From: Chlorobaculum sp.
GTDB lineage: Bacteria > Bacteroidota > Chlorobiia > Chlorobiales > Chlorobiaceae
Assembly (NCBI GenBank): GCA_013334655.1
Contig: JAAXXD010000020.1
Location: 1-33,493, forward strand
Length of the DNA: 33,493 bases
Direction: 5' to 3'
Shown here: positions 8,563 to 17,984 of the stretch, piece by piece
How the letters are laid out: every line of letters begins with the position of its first letter
Position numbering within the stretch: the stretch's first letter is position 1
Position numbers and translations under genes: made by a program
Notes under the pieces: generated by a model
Seen by the model: only the letters and a program-made list of their open reading frames with translations
Told to the model about the DNA's origin: nothing
Database searches by the model: none

Positions 8563-10386
8563 TCAAATCTGGTAATCCACGATGATCTCCCGCAAGGTCA
8601 GAAGGTCGGCGATCTGTTCGATGGCTTCCACGAGGTCTGAAATCTCTTCGAGATGCAGATCGGGTTCGGCATTTTGCAAGTCGTTTCGGCTAACGGTGAC
8701 GACAAGAATTTCATGAGGATCATTCAGCAGCTTGAGCGTCGCGATGTCGTAATCGTCTGCGTCGTCGATAGCCGTGATGAAGATCATGCCAGCATCGGTC
8801 ATGATGCGCGCAAGCTCTCCGAGGCGGCGCAACCGCTCCTCGACGTTTTTCTCGTTCACCCGCAGATCGGAATCGATCCCGTGCTCCATCGTGGCCATGC
8901 CGAGGTAATAGGTGCTGCACCCGTTTCTGAACAGCATGTTTTCAAGCTCCCGTGAAAGCGCGCGCTTTCCTGTGCCGGGCGGGCCGGTGATGACGATGAA
9001 CTTCGAGCGGTGACGATTCACGCGCTCCCGGTCGGATGTCGGCACGGAGCCGGTCTCCCAGTGGCGCTCGCGCTCGCGGATATGGCGCTCCAGCAGAGTT
9101 TCGCCGCCGGAGAGGTTTTCGAGCACGATGCCGCCACCGGCGATTTCATAGTTGTCCACGATGACGAACCGGCCCGTCGTTTCGTTGCGCGAGGCGAGGT
9201 CGAAGGCGATGGGGCGCGTCGTTTCGAATATGCACTCGCCCACGTCACGGCAATCGAGCTGCTGTTTGCCCCGGCTGAGATTCAGCTCGGCAGCGTCGAG
9301 CGTATTGACGATCTCGGCCAGCCTGACCGTCGCCCTCGCGGTGCCGAGCTTCAGCTTGTACTCCTTCTCCTTCGACATCGGCACGCGCCCCACCCAGAAG
9401 ATATTCGCCCGGAAGCGCGTGCCGACTTCCGGCTGCGGATCGCCGGGGCGCACCATGATTTCGCCGGGTCGGATATAAATCTGCGTCGAGAGCGTGAAGC
9501 CGGTCGGCTCCCCAGCCGAAACTGACTCCTTGCGCGGAGTGTTGAAGGACTCGATTGACGCGATATGCGACCGCTTTCCGGAGGGCAGAAACAGCACCTC
9601 CTCGCCGTTGCGGATAGTGCCCGCCTCGATGGTTCCGGCCACGATCCGGCGGTCGTCCCCGGAGCTGGTGAACTTGTAGATGTCCTGCACGGGAAGCCGG
9701 AACGGCTTTTCATGCAGCTCCCGGCCAGTCGTGAAAAGGTCGAGCTGACCCAGCACGGTCGGGCCGTCATGCCACGGCATCAGTTCGGAACTCTCCGCGA
9801 TGTTGTCCCCCTCGCGGGCGCTGACGGGGATAAAGCTGACCGGTTCTACGTCAATCTGCCGGAGGTACGCGGTGTATTCCGCCTTCAGCTTCTCGAACGC
9901 CTCCTCGCTGTATCCGACGAGATCCATCTTGTTGACCAGCACCGTCACCTGCCGCACGCCGAGCATCGCGACCATGTGGCCGTGCCGCTTCGAGTTCTCC
10001 CGGATGCCCTCGTTGGCGTCGATCACGAGCAGCGCGGCTTCGGCCCGCGACGCGCCGCTGATCATGTTCTTGAGAAACTCGATGTGGCCCGGCGCGTCGA
10101 TGATGATGTAGTCGCGCGAGGCGGTCTTGAAAAAGCAGCGAGCCGTGTCGATGGTGATTCCCTGCGCCTGCTCGTCCTTGAGCGCGTCGAGCAGGAAGGC
10201 GTATTCGAAAGGCCGCGAGTTGCGCAGGCACGACTCCCGCACCGCTTCGAGACGCCCTTCGGGCAGCGACCCCGTATCGGCGAGCAGTCGCCCGATCACC
10301 GTGCTCTTGCCATGATCGACATGGCCGACGATGACGATGTTCATTCTGGATCGTGACAATACCCTGTCAATGGTTTCCGTACTCAT
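8563..10386 (-). CDS. cysNC: Sulfate adenylyltransferase GTPase subunit CysN fused to a degenerate APS kinase (CysC) domain
   Basis: A 607-residue fusion. Residues 1-450 are CysN, the GTPase that with CysD makes APS from ATP and sulfate: P-loop GHVDHGKST (21-29), DAPGH (97-101) and NKMD (152-155), followed by beta-barrel domains. Residues about 460-607 align with APS kinase, but key sites have changed. The P-loop is GPPGTGKR (468-475) instead of the usual GLSGxGKS/T. The DGD motif after the second strand is replaced by LGMATM (495-500), although the nearby HG and DL residues and the [13 protein letters not shown] helix persist. I infer that the kinase half is inactive. This fits a pathway using APS reductase (next genes upstream), where PAPS is not needed. 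It is last in the operon, 247 bases after cysD, with a repeat in the gap. Confidence 0.9.
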
Positions 10387-10633: not shown

Positions 10634-11512
10634 TCACATATAGCCGTCGCGGCGCAGTGTCTCCAGGCCGCCATCCTCCTTGTCCTGCGCCCTGCCGGAG
10701 CGCTCGGCGACGTTGGTGAGCAATCCGCTTTCCAGCTCCTCGATGATCTCGCGCACGGTGCGTGACGGCGACTCTATCGGGTTGGTGCAGGGGGCGCAGC
10801 CGAGGGAGCGGTAGCGCGTGCCGTCGCCCTGGTTGAAGTAGAGCGAGACGATGGGAATCTGCTCACGCTCGATGTACTCCCAGATGTTCAGCTCCGTCCA
10901 GTCGAGTAGCGGATGAATGCGCACGTGCGTGCCCGGCGCGAAGTCGGTCTTGAACTGGTTCCAGAACTCGGGCGGCTGGTCGCCGACATCCCACGAGTTC
11001 GCGCTGTCACGCGGCGAGAAATAGCGCTCCTTCGAGCGGCTCCCCTCCTCGTCCGCGCGAACGCCGACAATGACGCCCGTGAACGGCTCGCGCTTGTCGT
11101 CCGGCACGTAGCGCTTCAGCTCGTGATCCATCCGGTAGCGCGGCCACTCGCCGGAAAGCGTGCGCTTCAGCGCCTCGCTCTTCAGGTGGCGGCAGCAGAC
11201 GAGCCGGTCAGTATTGCCGTCGGGAAAGGTCTGCCGCCCGTCGAGCGCCGCCCGGTTCTCGCCGTAAATCATGTTCAGATTCCACTCAAGCGCCACCCGG
11301 TCGCGATAGGTGATCATCTCCGGAATCTTGTAGTGCGTGTCGATGTGCACGAGCGGAATCGGCACATGGCCGAAAAACGCCTTCCGGGCGAGCCAGAGCA
11401 GCACTGTGCTGTCCTTGCCAATCGACCACAACATGCAGAGATTCTTGAACTCCCGGTACGCCTCCCTCAATATGTAAACGCTTTGTGCTTCGAGTTTGTC
11501 GAGATGGTTCAT
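10634..11512 (-). CDS. cysD: Sulfate adenylyltransferase catalytic subunit CysD
   Basis: A 292-residue PP-loop ATP pyrophosphatase that activates sulfate to adenosine 5'-phosphosulfate together with CysN. The start is the ATG at 11512 ([20 protein letters not shown]), the conserved CysD N terminus and 11 bases after the cysH stop; a longer frame upstream is only cysH antiframe. Motifs are [12 protein letters not shown] (PP-loop, about residues 32-43), [12 protein letters not shown] and the C-terminal [15 protein letters not shown] with the signature RSLGC just before. Length matches the family (about 300). It lies third of the protein genes in the sir-cysH-cysD-cysNC operon. Confidence 0.95.
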
Positions 11513-11523
11513 ACATGAATTCC

Positions 11524-12246
11524 TTATCGTTGATGAGCGTGAGCGCTGTGCAGGCCGCATTCCTTGAGTTCCGGCTGTTCCCACCACCAGCGCCCGGCCC
11601 GGATATCCTCGCCCGGCTCGATGGCTCTCGTGCACGGCGCGCAACCGATGCTCGGATAGCCCTTGTCGTGCAACTCGTTGTACGGCACATCGTTGTCCCT
11701 GATGTACTCCCAAATCCACTCTTCGCTCGCAAGCACCAGCGGATTGAGCTTGAAGAGGCCGAAGGTTTCGTCCCACTCGACCAGTTGAAGTTCATGCCGC
11801 GTGACCGACTGGCTCCGGCGCAGGCCGCAAATCCACGCCGAGAGGGTCGAGAGCTTGCGCGACAGGGGTTCGACCTTGCGAGCGCGGCAGCACAACCGCC
11901 GGTTCTCGATGCTTTCGTAGAAAAGGTTCGGCCCGTGCTCGCTCTGCATCTTCTGCACCGTTTCGGCCTCCGGGAAGAGCACTTCGATAGCGAGACCGTA
12001 GCGCTTCCGCGTCTCTTCGAGCAGGCGGTAGGTCTCTTCGGGCAAGCGTCCCGTGTCGAGGGTGAAGACGGGTGCCGGGAGGTTGTTGCGCCAGAGGATG
12101 TCCGTGATGACCTGATCTTCCGCGCCGAGGCTCGTTGAAAAGGCAATTCGCTCCGCGCCGAAGTAGTCGAGGGCGAGGCTGATCGCTTCGGCGGGTGACG
12201 CCCCGGCCCAGGCGGCGTTCAAAGTGTTTGCTGTTTCTATGCTCAT
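11524..12246 (-). CDS. cysH: Assimilatory APS reductase (CysH family)
   Basis: A 240-residue reductase that uses thioredoxin or glutathione-type reductant to turn APS into sulfite. The PP-loop-like [14 protein letters not shown] starts at about residue 37, and the substrate-binding [12 protein letters not shown] at 62-73. Two cysteine motifs, CC at 119-120 and CxxC at 202-205, supply ligands for a [4Fe-4S] cluster; this marks APS-type rather than PAPS-type enzymes. The catalytic ECGLH lies at 229-233. Use of APS directly explains why the CysC domain of the neighbour could degenerate. It follows the sulfite reductase gene by 73 bases and precedes cysD by 11. Confidence 0.93.
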
Positions 12247-12319: not shown

Positions 12320-13237
12320 TCAATCCTTTTCGACGCGCTGCAACGCGCCCTCAAGAATCTCCTCCTTGACCTCGTCGAGACCGATCCGGTCGATCATGTG
12401 GCCGAAACGCTCTTTTTTCCGTCCGTGCTTGCAGTAATAGTCTATCGCGCTGTCAACGAGGGCCAGCGCCTCGGCTTCCGTTTCGGCAAAGCGCTTGAGC
12501 ACCGAAGCGAAGCGCGGAATTTTGCCCATCGTGCCGCCGATCAGCACCGTGTAACCACTCCGGCCTGCAACCCAGGAACCCGTCGGGCACATCGAGGTGC
12601 AGACGCTGCAATTGATGCACTGCTCCTCGTCCACCTCGTACCGGAATCCCGCTTCCGCCGCCTGTTCGTCATCCCGGCGCTCGATCACATTCACCGGGCA
12701 GAACGAGAGGCAGTGGCCGCAATCGGTACAGGCTTCGGCATCCCAGCGCGGCTCAATCGCGCCACGAATGCCGATGTCGTTCTCGTTGGCCTTTGTGCAG
12801 TTATGGGCGCACCCGGTGACGGAGATCTTGAACTTCGATGGCGTCTCGCGCTTGAAGTAGCGTTCGTCGAGTTCGCGGGCAAGCTGTTTGGTATCGATGA
12901 CGCCCCACTTGCAGGTCTCCGCGCCGGGACAGGCAAGGATGCCCCGAACGCGCGGCCCGCAAGCGCCCATCTCCACGCCCGCTTCGTGCAGCGCGAGTTT
13001 GGCGTCTTCGAGATCGTCCTTGTGAACATGGTGGATTTCAACCCCCTGACGGGTGGAGAGGTGCACGACCCCTTTGCCGTACCGCTCGGCAACCTCGGCT
13101 ATCGCGGCAAGCTGAAAGGAGGAGAGATCACCCGCAAGCGCTTTGAGGCGCATCACATATAGCTCCGGCTGCGTCTGCTTCATCATCCCGATCCGGTCGG
13201 GCGCAGGCTGCTTCACGTTGTTGGCTTGTTCTGACAT
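12320..13237 (-). CDS. Small siroheme sulfite reductase with ferredoxin domain
   Basis: A 305-residue enzyme predicted to reduce sulfite to sulfide. The start at 13237 (MSEQANNVKQPAPD) has a purine-rich AAAAGAGAG about 7 bases upstream; longer frames would run into the tRNA. The siroheme/[4Fe-4S] ligands are CPGAETC (C103, C109) and CAHNC (C143, C147). Two ferredoxin-type clusters follow: C170, C173, C176, C180 and C207, C210, C213, C217. This is much smaller than CysI (about 570) and lacks the duplicated sulfite reductase repeat. It resembles the low-molecular-weight or AsrC-like sulfite/nitrite reductase group with an inserted 2[4Fe-4S] module. The operon with cysH, cysD and cysN supports an assimilatory role. 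Dissimilatory DsrAB function is unlikely given size and context. Confidence 0.88.
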   Translation of the reverse strand: MSEQANNVKQPAPDRIGMMKQTQPELYVMRLKALAGDLSSFQLAAIAEVAERYGKGVVHLSTRQGVEIHHVHKDDLEDAKLALHEAGVEMGACGPRVRGILACPGAETCKWGVIDTKQLARELDERYFKRETPSKFKISVTGCAHNCTKANENDIGIRGAIEPRWDAEACTDCGHCLSFCPVNVIERRDDEQAAEAGFRYEVDEEQCINCSVCTSMCPTGSWVAGRSGYTVLIGGTMGKIPRFASVLKRFAETEAEALALVDSAIDYYCKHGRKKERFGHMIDRIGLDEVKEEILEGALQRVEKD

Positions 13238-13293
13238 GGCATTGCTCTCTTTTCGATTCTGTGATTCCCGTTTCATCAGCGTATTTCTCATCG

Positions 13294-13369
13294 CGGCGAC
13301 GGCAAGATTCGAACTTGCAACAATCAAAGGTTTTGCAGACCCCGGTTTCAACCCCTCACCCACGTCGCC
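13294..13369 (-). tRNA. tRNA-Cys (anticodon GCA), divergent structure
   Basis: The minus strand folds as a tRNA. The acceptor GGCGACG pairs with CGTCGCC in full. The anticodon arm is GGGGT-CTGCAAA-ACCTT, with anticodon GCA (Cys) and two G-T wobbles at the stem base. The T arm is GCAAG-TTCGAAT-CTTGC, five perfect pairs. Oddities: only three clean D-stem pairs (GGT/ACC), no spare base at position 26, a variable region of eight bases (TGATTGTT) where bacterial tRNA-Cys has four or five, and G at the discriminator position instead of the expected T. No CCA is encoded. It ends 56 bases before the sulfite reductase start on the same strand, so it probably heads that operon. Confidence 0.85.
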
Positions 13370-13415
13370 CTGTCGTGCGTTATCAACGACGATCAACGCG
13401 CCCAATAAAACACGA

Positions 13416-13437
13416 AAACCGCTGCAAAGAGCGGTTT
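13416..13437. other. Hairpin upstream of the tRNA-Cys operon
   Basis: AAACCGCT (13416-13423) and AGCGGTTT (13430-13437) form a perfect 8-bp stem with a 6-base loop. On the minus strand it is followed by TTTTCGTGTTTTATT. It may terminate transcripts from the pentapeptide-repeat gene upstream, or lie in the leader of the tRNA-Cys operon. The remaining 13438-13741 shows no gene I can support. Confidence 0.5.
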
Positions 13438-13741
13438 CTACCATACAAATACCGTAAAGATGGTAGTGGGGGGAGGAGGGGAATGTTTTGGTTGGAGATT
13501 ATAGGGGAGGAGCGCGGAAGGGAAAGACGACTTATCGACGCTGCTCTACAAGTTCGAGAACAAACACGTCGAGATATGAAACACTGCCTGAAGTATATTG
13601 TTTTCAAGGTAGCCTTTCTGCTATTTTGACATAAAGCCACTCAGATATAATTTATAATCAAACAAAGAGAATAGCAATACGCAGAAGAGTTATAAATTTG
13701 ATATTTAAATATTGAAAATATGCAGGAAATTAAATGGCAAT

Positions 13742-14821
13742 CTACTCCCCACACGCCAACTTCCCGTTTTCAATGAGATTCAATTCAATTACCGCTTTTT
13801 GAGGGTTTCTCAATAAAGCGGGATCGCTATCAAGTTTGATCATCATTTCTGGAGAAATCGTTTCAATAAACAACTTTTTTGTACCGCTTACCGAAGTTTT
13901 GATGATGAGTATTGAACCCAACCGAATCGCAACTTCATCCAATTCATGATCATTATTTATTTGAGCCAATAGTTTAGCAGCAGCATCAGCAAGCGCGGCT
14001 GTAGTTTCAGCAGATGGCTTCCTTATATATGCAGCCTCAAGAGCCGTCTTTCCTTTACCATATATATCCCCCAATTCCTTACTTGTTTTATCTCCTTTTA
14101 AAACATACTTTAATCGCTCAAAAAAACTTCCAATAATCGGCTCTTCCTCAGCCTCATACTCAAATCCACAGGCACCCAAGAAATCATCAACAGCAGTAAG
14201 CAATCGCTCAATTGTCATCTGCTCAATATCAGATTGTGGAATATTTATCTCGACAACTGCATTTCGATTGTGACGCTGCCTCCAGTACCTTGTCGGCACT
14301 TCAGTTAATCGTTCAACATCCTTCAGATTGGCTCCCACCAGAATGGCTTTCTCCAAATTGGCTCCCACCAGATTGGCTTTCTCCAAATTGGCTTCTTTTA
14401 GATCAGCTTTCTCCAGATTGGCTCCTACCAAATTGGCTTCTTTCAGATTGGCTCTCTCCAGAATGGCATAATACAGATTGGCTTCCCCCAGATTGGCACT
14501 CTCCAGATCGGCATAATACAGATTGGCTTTCCCCAGATTGGCTCCCATCAGATTGGCTCCTTTCAGATTGGCTCCTTTCAGATTGGCTTTCTCCAGATTG
14601 GCTCCTACCAGATTGGCATAATGCAGAGTAACTCTATCCAGATTGGCTTTCGCCAAATTTGCTCCCTCCAGATACGTATCATTCAGATTAGCTTTCGCCA
14701 GATTAGCCATCGGCAAATTAGCCTCACTCAAATCGGGCTTAATATCAGGATTCTTATACCTCCACTCGTTCCAAGCCATAATACCCTGCTTAAGAATCTC
14801 CAGATGCTCAGAGTTTGCCAT
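13742..14821 (-). CDS. Pentapeptide-repeat protein with uncharacterised C-terminal domain
   Basis: A 359-residue protein. A short N-terminal helix ends with [19 protein letters not shown], a common entry into pentapeptide repeats. Residues 30-167 hold about 27 consecutive A(N/D)LxxANL-type repeats, predicted to fold as a right-handed quadrilateral beta-helix. The C-terminal 180 residues are not repetitive and not recognised: an acidic linker (EAEEEP), a helical part (about 225-290, including [20 protein letters not shown]) and a mixed alpha/beta end. There is no signal peptide or membrane helix, so it is likely cytoplasmic. The gene is more AT-rich than its neighbours and stands alone. Pentapeptide proteins include gyrase protectors and effector-linked proteins, but nothing here assigns a role. 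Confidence 0.85.
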
Positions 14822-15054
14822 AGCAGTTTATGGTTGGGTGAATGAATCTACCGGTACAGGCCGGGTTTGGAAAATGCGTGCCATATCCGAGAAGTCTGAG
14901 GTTGTGAAACAGCTCGGGTATTGATTGAGGGACTATGGAGAAGATACGGAAATAGTGCGCATTCAGCAAAGGACGCATCCGATGAAAGGTTCAAAGCTTT
15001 CACCGATGAAATCCGGCAAAAATCCTCAAACAGCGTTCACCACTCAGTACCAAT

Positions 15055-15381
15055 TCAGGCGTCGGCGGATTTGCGCTTTGGCTCCAGCTTGATCACCAGA
15101 TCACAGCCGACGGCTTCGGCATATTTTCTCAGCGTGGCGATGGAGGGCGAGTGCTGGCTGCCGCCTTCGAGTCTGGAGATCGCGCTTTTGGTCGTGCCGA
15201 TCTTGCTGGCAACCGCTTCCTGCGTCATGCCAGACTTCTTTCGCGCTTCAAGCAGCTCCCTGATCAGCGCGTACTTGGGTTCAAGCGCTTCATATTCCCT
15301 GCGGAACTCCTCATCCTCAAGATCCTTCTGGATCTCTGCCTTAACATCATATCGTACCGGCTGATATTTCAAATCTTCCAT
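15055..15381 (-). CDS. higA: HigA-like XRE antitoxin
   Basis: A 108-residue DNA-binding protein with an Xre/Cro helix-turn-helix at about residues 44-96 (GMTQEAVASKIGTTKSAISR then LEGG). It ends with a positively charged tail. It starts on the TAATG overlap with the toxin gene upstream, the toxin-first order typical of higBA modules. It should bind and neutralise the toxin and repress the operon. The N-terminal 35 residues are acidic (DLEDEEFRREYEAL) and probably contact the toxin. Confidence 0.85.
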   Translation of the reverse strand: MEDLKYQPVRYDVKAEIQKDLEDEEFRREYEALEPKYALIRELLEARKKSGMTQEAVASKIGTTKSAISRLEGGSQHSPSIATLRKYAEAVGCDLVIKLEPKRKSADA

Positions 15382-15701
15382 TATTGAACCTCCTGCAATC
15401 TTTTTCGGGCAAGCTGCAACTCTTTTTGTGGTGTTTTCTGCGTCTTTTTGATGAAGCTATGCAAAATGATGATCTTTTTGCCTTTCACATAGCAATAAAA
15501 TACTCTGCCGATACCATCCCGGCCTTGCGGCCTCATCTCGAACAATCCGTCGCCCATAGCTTTGGTATGCGGCATCCGTACTTGCGGGCCATACTCCACC
15601 AACAACAGCGAAATTTTTCTGAAATCCGCCTTGATGCTCTTCGGCCAGCCGTTTATATCCGCCTTAATACTCGGATGAAAATATTCGATTTCATAATTCA
15701 T
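15381..15701 (-). CDS. higB: HigB-like RelE/ParE-superfamily toxin
   Basis: A 106-residue phage-derived Gp49-like/HigB toxin. The start at 15701 (MNYEIEYFHPSIKADI) fits the family; an earlier ATG adds a non-family extension. Conserved features are MPHTKAMGDGLFEMRPQG (the L-x-G-LfElR block) and FYCYVKGKKIIILHSFIKKTQKTP (the core strand and the K-K-T-x-K-T-P basic end). Such proteins are usually ribosome-dependent mRNA interferases that cut translated mRNA. It overlaps the antitoxin start by one base (TAATG). The module appears intact. Confidence 0.87.
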   Translation of the reverse strand: MNYEIEYFHPSIKADINGWPKSIKADFRKISLLLVEYGPQVRMPHTKAMGDGLFEMRPQGRDGIGRVFYCYVKGKKIIILHSFIKKTQKTPQKELQLARKRLQEVQ

Positions 15702-15858
15702 GGCAAAAGTTAGCGAATATGCGAACCAACTAAAAGCGAGTGTCGAAGAAAAATGCGGAAAATCCCGCCGGTAAATCCAACCCAAACCATACTCGATCCT
15801 CACCTACCACAGAAATACCGGAAACACGGTACGCGGGAGACGTGAATTCTGCTTACCT

Positions 15859-15896: not shown

Positions 15897-17039
15897 ATGC
15901 ACTTTGAAACGCTTGCCATCCATGACGGTAATACGCCGGAAGGGTGCGCCGGATCGGTGACTCCGCCGGTTTACCAGACTTCGACCTTCGCGCGGCCCAG
16001 CCTCGACGAGCGGGGGGAGTTCTTCTATTCGCGCATTGGCAACCCGACGCGCTCGGCGCTCGAAACGACTCTCGCCTTGCTTGAAAACGGCAAACACGCC
16101 ACGACCTTCGCCTCGGGCGTGGCGGCGATGATGGCGGCGATGCAGGTGCTCAGGCCGGGCGATCATGTCGTCTCCAGCCTCGACGTTTACGGCGGCAGTT
16201 ACCGCATTTTCGAGCAGCTCATGCGCCCGTGGGGTGTCGAGACCTCCTACGCGGCGAGCGAAGCGACGGAAAGCTATGTGGCGTGCATCCGCCCCGAAAC
16301 CCGCATGATCTGGGTCGAAACGCCATCCAATCCGCTTTTACAGATTTGCGACCTTCGCGCCCTTGCCGCAATCGCCAACGAGCGCGGCATCGTGCTCGCC
16401 GTGGACAACACCTTCGCCAGCCCCTACTTCCAGAGGCCGCTCGACCTAGGCGCCCACCTCGTTGTGCACAGCACCACCAAGTACCTCGGCGGCCACAGCG
16501 ATGTCATCGGCGGCGCGGTCATCGCCTCGGACGACAAGCTGCACCACGCCGTCCGCAACTATCAGGGGGCGGCGGGAGCGATTCCCGGCCCGTGGGATTG
16601 CTGGCTCGTCTCTCGCGGCATCAAGACGCTGAAAATCCGCATGGAGGAGCACCAGAAAAACGCGCTGCATCTGGCCCGCGCGCTCGAAAAGCATCCGGCG
16701 GTGAGCCGCGTCATCTACCCCGGACTGGCGTCGCACCCGCAGCACGAACTGGCAAAATCGCAGATGAGCGGCTTCGGCGGGATGCTCACCATCGCGCTCG
16801 GCGGCGGCCTTCCGGCGGTTCGCAAGATGCTCGGCGCTCTGAAGCTCTTCGTCATTGCCGACAGCCTCGGCGGCGTGGAGTCGCTCGTCGCCTCGCCCGC
16901 GCTGATGACCCTCGGCCCATTGAGCAGGGAGGAAAAGCATCGCCGCGCCTGCACCGACGACCTTGTGCGGCTCTCGATTGGCCTCGAAAACGCGGAGGAT
17001 CTCGAAGCGGACCTCCTTCAGGCACTTGCAACCATCTGA
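15897..17039 (+). CDS. Cystathionine gamma-synthase/lyase family enzyme
   Basis: A 380-residue PLP enzyme of the Cys/Met metabolism family. [12 protein letters not shown] (45-56) is the family block that binds phosphate across the dimer. The TFASG...AA glycine region is at 70-77, [10 protein letters not shown] at 168-177, and the PLP lysine is K195 in [10 protein letters not shown]. Members either make cystathionine from O-acyl-homoserine and cysteine (MetB) or cleave it to cysteine (MccB/CTH), and sequence alone does not settle which. The directly following cysteine synthase gene (12 bases) resembles mccA-mccB pairs of reverse transsulfuration, which favours the lyase role slightly. The length is typical. 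Confidence 0.88.
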
Positions 17040-17051
17040 ATCAGAAACCAC

Positions 17052-17984
17052 ATGGCCATCATCGCAAACATCACGAGCACCATCGGACGCACGCCGCTGG
17101 TGCGGCTCAACAAGCTCTCGGCGGGCCTCGAAGCCGATATTCTGCTCAAGCTCGAATTCTTCAACCCGCTCGGCAGCGTGAAGGATCGCATCGGACGTGC
17201 CATGATCGAGGCCGCCGAAGCCGAGGGGAAAATCGACGCCCGGACGCTCATCGTCGAGCCGACCAGCGGCAACACTGGAATCGCGCTCGCCTTCGTCTGC
17301 GCCGAGCGCGGCTACCGGTTGCTGCTCACGATGCCAGAAACGATGAGCCTCGAACGGCGCAAGCTGCTGCGCTACCTCGGCGCGGAGCTGGTGCTCACCC
17401 CCGGCTCGAAAGGGATGAAGGGGGCCATTGAGGAGGCGGCGCGGATCGTCGAGGCTGAAAAGAACAGCTTCAATCCCGGCCAGTTCAGCAACCCGGCCAA
17501 TCCACGGATTCACCAGGCGACCACCGGCCCCGAAATCTGGAACGACTCCGAGGGTAAGGTGGACATCCTCGTATCGGGCGTCGGCACGGGCGGCACCATC
17601 ACCGGCGCGTCGCGCTTCATCAAGGCGCTCAAGCCCGGCTTCAGAAGCATCGCCGTCGAACCGGCAGCCTCGCCGGTGCTCTCGGGCGGCCAGCCGGGGC
17701 CGCACAAAATCCAGGGCATCGGCGCGGGCTTCGTGCCCGACGTGCTCGACGTGTCGCTGATCGACGAGGTGGTGACGGTGAGCAACGAGGACGCCATCGC
17801 GACAGCCCGGGCGCTCGCCGCGCAGGAGGGCATCCTCTGCGGCATCTCATCGGGCGCGGCAGTTCACGCGGCCATCGAAGTAGCGAAACGCTCCTCGTCA
17901 GCAGGCAAAACCATCGTCGCCATCATCCCAAGCACCGGCGAACGCTACCTCAGCACCGACCTGTTCGCGGGCATCGAGGGGTAA
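17052..17984 (+). CDS. cysK: Cysteine synthase (O-acetylserine sulfhydrylase)
   Basis: A 310-residue PLP enzyme joining sulfide to O-acetylserine to give cysteine. The PLP lysine is K44 in GSVKDRIG, the substrate loop is TSGNTG (71-76), and the phosphate-binding GVGTGGT lies at about 177-183. GISSGAAV near residue 270 is the conserved late serine region. It starts [19 protein letters not shown], typical of CysK. It is co-transcribed with the upstream cystathionine enzyme gene. An O-acetylserine-dependent cystathionine beta-synthase (MccA) role is possible, because those enzymes are close relatives. It would capture sulfide made by the sulfite reductase encoded nearby. Confidence 0.92.

Follow-up and report, generated by a model that had tools for sequence, protein, structure and literature searches.

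Why should a gene for a cysteine tRNA stand at the head of an operon that makes cysteine from sulfate? The question is raised by a stretch of 33,493 nucleotides of Chlorobaculum sp. (hereafter the window), in which a tRNA gene with a GCA anticodon, tRNA-Cys2, lies 56 nt upstream of sir on the same strand, followed by cysH, cysD and cysNC (Table 1). This arrangement had been noticed in a sequence-only reading, and ARAGORN, Rfam and the gene models agree on it. With slightly better than even confidence, we regard tRNA-Cys2 as a family-specific paralog of tRNA-Cys that forms part of the sulfur-assimilation regulon of the Chlorobiaceae, would be co-transcribed with it and would act in trans.

Table 1. 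Features around tRNA-Cys2 in the window (positions count from the first nucleotide of the window).
Feature	Position	Strand	Evidence or remark
cysNC, sulfate adenylyltransferase large subunit with partial APS-kinase domain	8563..10386	-	TIGR02034, Pfam APS_kinase
cysD, sulfate adenylyltransferase small subunit	10634..11512	-	NF003587 above cut-off; start codon by inspection
cysH, APS/PAPS reductase	11524..12246	-	NF002537 and TIGR02055 above cut-off
sir, sulfite reductase-like siroheme/4Fe-4S protein, 305 aa, 14 Cys	12320..13237	-	Pfam NIR_SIR, NIR_SIR_ferr
tRNA-Cys2 (GCA anticodon, G73, no CCA encoded)	13294..13369	-	ARAGORN; Rfam RF00005, 46.6 bits; covariation
terminator-like hairpin between operator-like element and tRNA-Cys2	13415..13438	-	1 found, 0.5 expected
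operator-like element TACCATCTTTACGGTATTTGTATGGTA	13439..13465	-	69 nt before tRNA-Cys2; 0 expected in shuffles
weaker second operator-like copy	15805..15831	-	65 nt before metB; 2 mismatches, 0 expected
metB-like PLP enzyme, divergent from the tRNA-sir unit	15897..17039	+	best models, below their equivalog cut-offs
cysK, cysteine synthase	17052..17984	+	TIGR01139, 457.6 bits, cut-off 350.95

The operon and its control region

One of the enzymes encoded downstream of the tRNA shows a peculiarity. CysNC passes the cut-off of the CysN model only (337.3 bits for TIGR02034, cut-off 336.1), and its APS_kinase match is partial (positions 2-81 of the 152 of the Pfam model). Since the kinase match is partial and CysH passes the cut-off of an APS-reductase model, the APS-kinase step may be unused. 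The tRNA-sir unit and metB-cysK are separated in the window (13742-15803) by a gene for a pentapeptide-repeat protein and by a small HTH gene whose neighbour may encode a RelE-like toxin; several other g1 genomes have the two units adjacent and divergent.

The sequence-only reading had proposed that transcription of the tRNA may be tied to the supply of cysteine, and the arrangement of the putative control elements is in line with this. The roles that it had further suggested, a sensor of charging, a source of tRNA for Cys-rich proteins or a non-translational function, are hypothetical. In the g1 genomes the operator-like element (consensus approximately TACC-N7-ACGGTATTTNTATGGTA) starts some 95-140 nt ahead of the tRNA, and none was found there between the tRNA and sir. 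In g2 genomes that have sir and lack a tRNA in front of it, the element is located some 100-200 nt ahead of sir itself, and in several genomes it is also found ahead of a porin-like gene and of cysK. A 20-nt version of the operator has only two sites at up to 3 mismatches in the genome to which the window belongs (a 2.43 Mb assembly, 84.5% complete), one of them at this operon, and the reversed control gave 0. No terminator-like site was found between tRNA-Cys2 and sir (13294 to 13237), no common fold was seen in this interval among the aligned genomes, and no sigma-70-like promoter hexamers were recognised. The terminator-like hairpin on the other side of the tRNA recurs among the aligned genomes in G017. 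With an operator-like element ahead of the tRNA and none between the tRNA and sir, tRNA-Cys2 seems to be situated within a sulfur-regulon transcription unit, and its expression appears to be coupled to that of the pathway from sulfate to cysteine. That the element would respond to sulfur is deduced from the genes downstream of it, and it constitutes a clear candidate for a sulfur-limitation operator in green sulfur bacteria. A second conserved palindrome (approximately TTAAC-N4-GTTAA) is found near sir, some tens of nt downstream of the element, in g2 loci such as L153, L154 and L151.

On the reading that we favour, a shortage of reduced sulfur would lead the operator-controlled promoter to yield a single transcript. 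tRNA-Cys2 would be excised from it by RNase P and 3' processing and then receive its CCA, whereas the leftover mRNA would direct the synthesis of the enzymes that convert sulfate to cysteine. The tRNA would work in trans in translation, providing extra cysteine-acceptor capacity when cysteine derives from sulfate. In this way shared transcription would tie the supply of a tRNA to the making of the amino acid that it should carry, despite the presence of a canonical tRNA-Cys in the group.

The co-transcription of tRNA genes with protein genes is familiar from the metY-nusA-infB and thrU-tufB units of Escherichia coli. These have in common with the present locus that a tRNA precedes protein genes in one transcription unit, here as judged from the control region upstream and the lack of a terminator between tRNA-Cys2 and sir. 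However, the units of E. coli encode translation factors, whereas the genes considered here encode enzymes that make the presumed amino acid of the tRNA, and a pathway-specific operator-like element is found in front of them. T-box riboswitches likewise couple tRNAs to amino-acid operons, but they sense a tRNA made elsewhere, whereas here the tRNA gene itself is inside the operon; no T-box RNA was matched in the genome assembly (84.5% complete), while control genomes were positive.

Sequence, fold and charging of tRNA-Cys2

ARAGORN predicts a tRNA-Cys(gca) at 13293-13369 on the minus strand, and the Rfam score lies well above the gathering score of 29. The acceptor stem (GGCGACG/CGTCGCC) and the T stem (GCAAG/CTTGC) are fully paired, as had been claimed. 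The claimed departures were also read in the sequence: a variable region of 8 nt (UGAUUGUU), two wobble pairs in the anticodon stem (G27-U43 and G28-U42, followed by G-C, G-C and U-A) and a G at discriminator position 73. After G73 the gene encodes C74 and no complete CCA; C74 is encoded in every copy of the G73 type, as in the other tRNA genes of the genome. The anticodon loop is a 7-nt CUGCAAA. The bare strand has a minimum-energy fold of -24.6 kcal/mol that is not a cloverleaf, the cloverleaf reaching -22.4 kcal/mol. Nevertheless, covariation across relatives supports the cloverleaf: in an alignment that took in canonical tRNA-Cys too, 97.9% of the cells were paired, 8 pairs had changed on both sides and 0 of 500 shuffles scored as high.

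A canonical tRNA-Cys was found by the Rfam tRNA model and ARAGORN at G000:C24:13039-13109 of the same genome, with U73, an encoded CCA and a variable region of 4 nt. tRNA-Cys2 is thus the second tRNA-Cys of the genome, as had been suspected, and not its only one. The two share the cloverleaf, the CUGCAAA loop, the pair G2-C71 and a D stem of three pairs with a G13-A22 mismatch. By inspection the D stem reads likewise in both, and its weakness, which had been listed among the oddities of tRNA-Cys2, is therefore no departure at all. tRNA-Cys2 differs by having G73 instead of U73, by being one base shorter ahead of the anticodon stem, by a variable region that is highly variable in length and sequence, and by being embedded in sulfur operons. 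The absence of base 26, also put forward as a peculiarity, holds for the G73 type and not for its U73 relatives, which have one extra base there. Among the relatives, 23 distinct sequences of the G73 type have G73 throughout and vary almost only in the D loop, the outer anticodon stem and the variable region, and the CUGCAAA loop is invariant among all intact copies. Sequence comparison thus shows the fold and the anticodon loop of tRNA-Cys2 to be under purifying selection.

Charging is the least certain part of our explanation. The GCA anticodon and the acceptor pairs G2-C71 and C3-G70 fit cysteine identity, but U73 is a major cysteine determinant (PMC9976931), and the window copy and all its G73-type relatives have G in its place, which counts against our reading. 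As G73 is conserved, a poor CysRS substrate is to be expected, and tRNA-Cys2 may consequently be a weakly charged, late-filling acceptor. A rather improbable extension of this thought makes the tRNA a gauge of cysteine, kept empty by G73 until cysteine is plentiful and signalling in trans or via its processing in order to tune the pathway; the tRNA would then be a feedback regulator of the very operon that encodes it. It is somewhat easier to envisage, though still unlikely, that tRNA-Cys2 is chiefly a regulatory tRNA-like RNA in which decoding is secondary or absent, either a sensor or decoy held poorly charged by G73, or a leader whose acceptor and T half serves as a processing signal. The constancy of G73 in all 23 sequences, the poor conservation of the outer pairs of the anticodon stem in the covariation alignment and the position of the gene as an operon leader agree with such a role, but the unchanging CUGCAAA loop of every intact copy does not.

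The G73 is also a serine feature, and the pattern of the 5' acceptor strand and D arm retrieved tRNA-Ser in 75 of the 80 loci checked, which could suggest a derivative of tRNA-Ser that places serine at cysteine codons. We consider this highly improbable, as tRNA-Cys2 does not have the long variable arm that is a major requirement of SerRS (PMC9976931), its acceptor carries both cysteine pairs, and the U73 relatives (the form of G035 and G039 and type B, see below) align best with canonical tRNA-Cys. Nor did alignment to the tRNAs of the genome itself reveal a serine-tRNA chimera: the G73 form had no obvious parent among them, and the U73 forms were best matched by tRNA-Cys.

The selC*-type minor tRNAs of bacteria (Mukai et al. 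2017) are likewise tRNAs-Cys that accompany a normal one. They are long-armed, with U73 and an 8/4 acceptor/T structure, and in Desulfobacterales a dedicated CysRS* serves them (reviewed in PMC7609411). In contrast, tRNA-Cys2 has a 7/5 structure and G73, and no second CysRS to go with it was found. The genome carries one full CysRS, as was found in nearly every genome of the family, and a second full-length CysRS that would make a dedicated pair was not found in it; an apparent second one turned up in G003 alone, whose assembly is 9% contaminated. G73 in a tRNA-Cys has been described for Methanospirillum and Methanoregula, where it is accompanied by changes in CysRS; these are archaeal tRNAs, for which the relevant passage describes no link to an operon (PMC8762117). 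The persistence of G73 here allows one to ask, as in a natural experiment, whether a tRNA-Cys can change its discriminator base and maintain the change across two genera.

The linkage of a tRNA-Cys gene to sulfur metabolism genes is shared with SepCysS loci (PMC5424206). It could accordingly be argued that a precursor is converted to cysteine on the tRNA, as in the SepRS/SepCysS route. This is the least credible of the explanations considered: SepRS was above the cut-off in 0 of 86 genomes (best matches 17-19 bits; two control genomes above the cut-off), nearly every genome has a full CysRS, and the pathway encoded here is a direct one with a free cysteine synthase. We found no earlier paper linking tRNA-Cys to sulfate assimilation in Chlorobi and no prior description of a second tRNA-Cys in a bacterial regulon of direct cysteine synthesis, in a literature search that covered few subscription papers.

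Distribution, loss and retention in the Chlorobiaceae

The locus was compared across 86 genomes of Chlorobiaceae and 12 from other families of the class, many of them draft or metagenome assemblies. Genes related to tRNA-Cys2 are present in most of the 86 (the query matched 65, including weak partial matches that were taken to be canonical tRNA-Cys), and sir was found in 51; the 12 other genomes yielded 0 matches to either. Among the genomes at least 90% complete, 37 have both sir and an intact tRNA, 5 only sir, 5 only the tRNA and 18 neither. The presence of the tRNA thus tracks that of sir (37/42 versus 5/23, Fisher p=1.3e-7, a statistic that ignores phylogeny), and a CysRS tree of 40 genomes requires several independent changes in the presence of sir. 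An in-frame TGA noted in the sir genes of G037 and G080 proved to be simply the normal stop.

Two main types of the tRNA can be distinguished. Type A copies are mostly 84-100% identical and usually have G73. They lie directly upstream of sir in 10 of the 11 sir-bearing g1 genomes and in the g2 genomes G040 and G047, whereas the sir-adjacent copy of G035 and G039 resembles type A but has U73. In 13 genomes of g2 an intact copy with G73 is found elsewhere, between metY and a gene for a DUF4395 protein, the stop of which is often 14 nt away. In the longer of these loci, metY is succeeded by a LuxR-type gene, cysK and a serine-acetyltransferase-like gene (cysE). Type B copies are about 78% identical, have U73 with one exception and lie downstream of the porin-like gene (a label given by inspection, as there was no Pfam match), often just upstream of sir. 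The occurrence of U73 at the orthologous place, in G035, G039 and type B, counts against the reading as a regulatory RNA.

As tRNA genes are common integration sites, tRNA-Cys2 might also be an ordinary spare tRNA-Cys gene that came to lie near cysteine genes by historical accident, through integration or chance synteny, and has no regulatory meaning. That the tRNA is dispensable, as follows from the five good genomes that have sir and no intact copy (G013, G024, G030, G043, G065), and that it is often lost would be in keeping with this; the dispensability also counts against the reading that we favour. However, the tRNA is present in two different cysteine operons, it is preceded by the operator-like element in g1, its presence follows that of sir across the family, and no att-like duplication of its 3' end exists in the window; we therefore think an accident improbable. 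Searches for a plasmid origin gave no match, and those for a phage origin gave four viral matches that are unrelated tRNA-Cys genes.

The genomes in which the association has been broken are informative. G004 and G015 yielded no sir but have kept the operator and the tRNA; their tRNAs are identical in 76 of 76 positions as against 114 of 130 in the upstream flank, and in G015 a strong terminator-like hairpin follows the tRNA. In G019 the operator and a similar terminator remain and the tRNA is lost. The retention of the operator and tRNA after the loss of sir argues for a tRNA product that works in trans, and implies that there is no cis role on sir in those two genomes, which weakens the case for a regulatory leader. 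The history of retention and loss is in keeping with a product that acts in trans and benefits chiefly those organisms that assimilate sulfate. A regulatory role might be read from three copies at the same genomic place that have perfect acceptor ends and no anticodon or anticodon arm, and that count to this extent against the reading that we favour, but these may equally be plain pseudogenes. The copy of G033 has lost the anticodon; those of G065 (L148) and G013 (L150) show two independent internal deletions from the D loop to the T arm that removed the anticodon arm.

Two further features of the type B loci were observed. In L131, L132, L139 and L134 the tRNA sits between two long terminator-like hairpins (arms CATCCGGG/CCCGGATG) and starts a few nt from the first T-run, so that its expression would require a hidden promoter or transcription that continues through from the porin-like gene. 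Tandem copies are present in L134, L137, L138, L143, L144 and L147; of these the upstream one has kept its T arm intact but carries changes in the anticodon loop (CTA, AAA or four-base calls).
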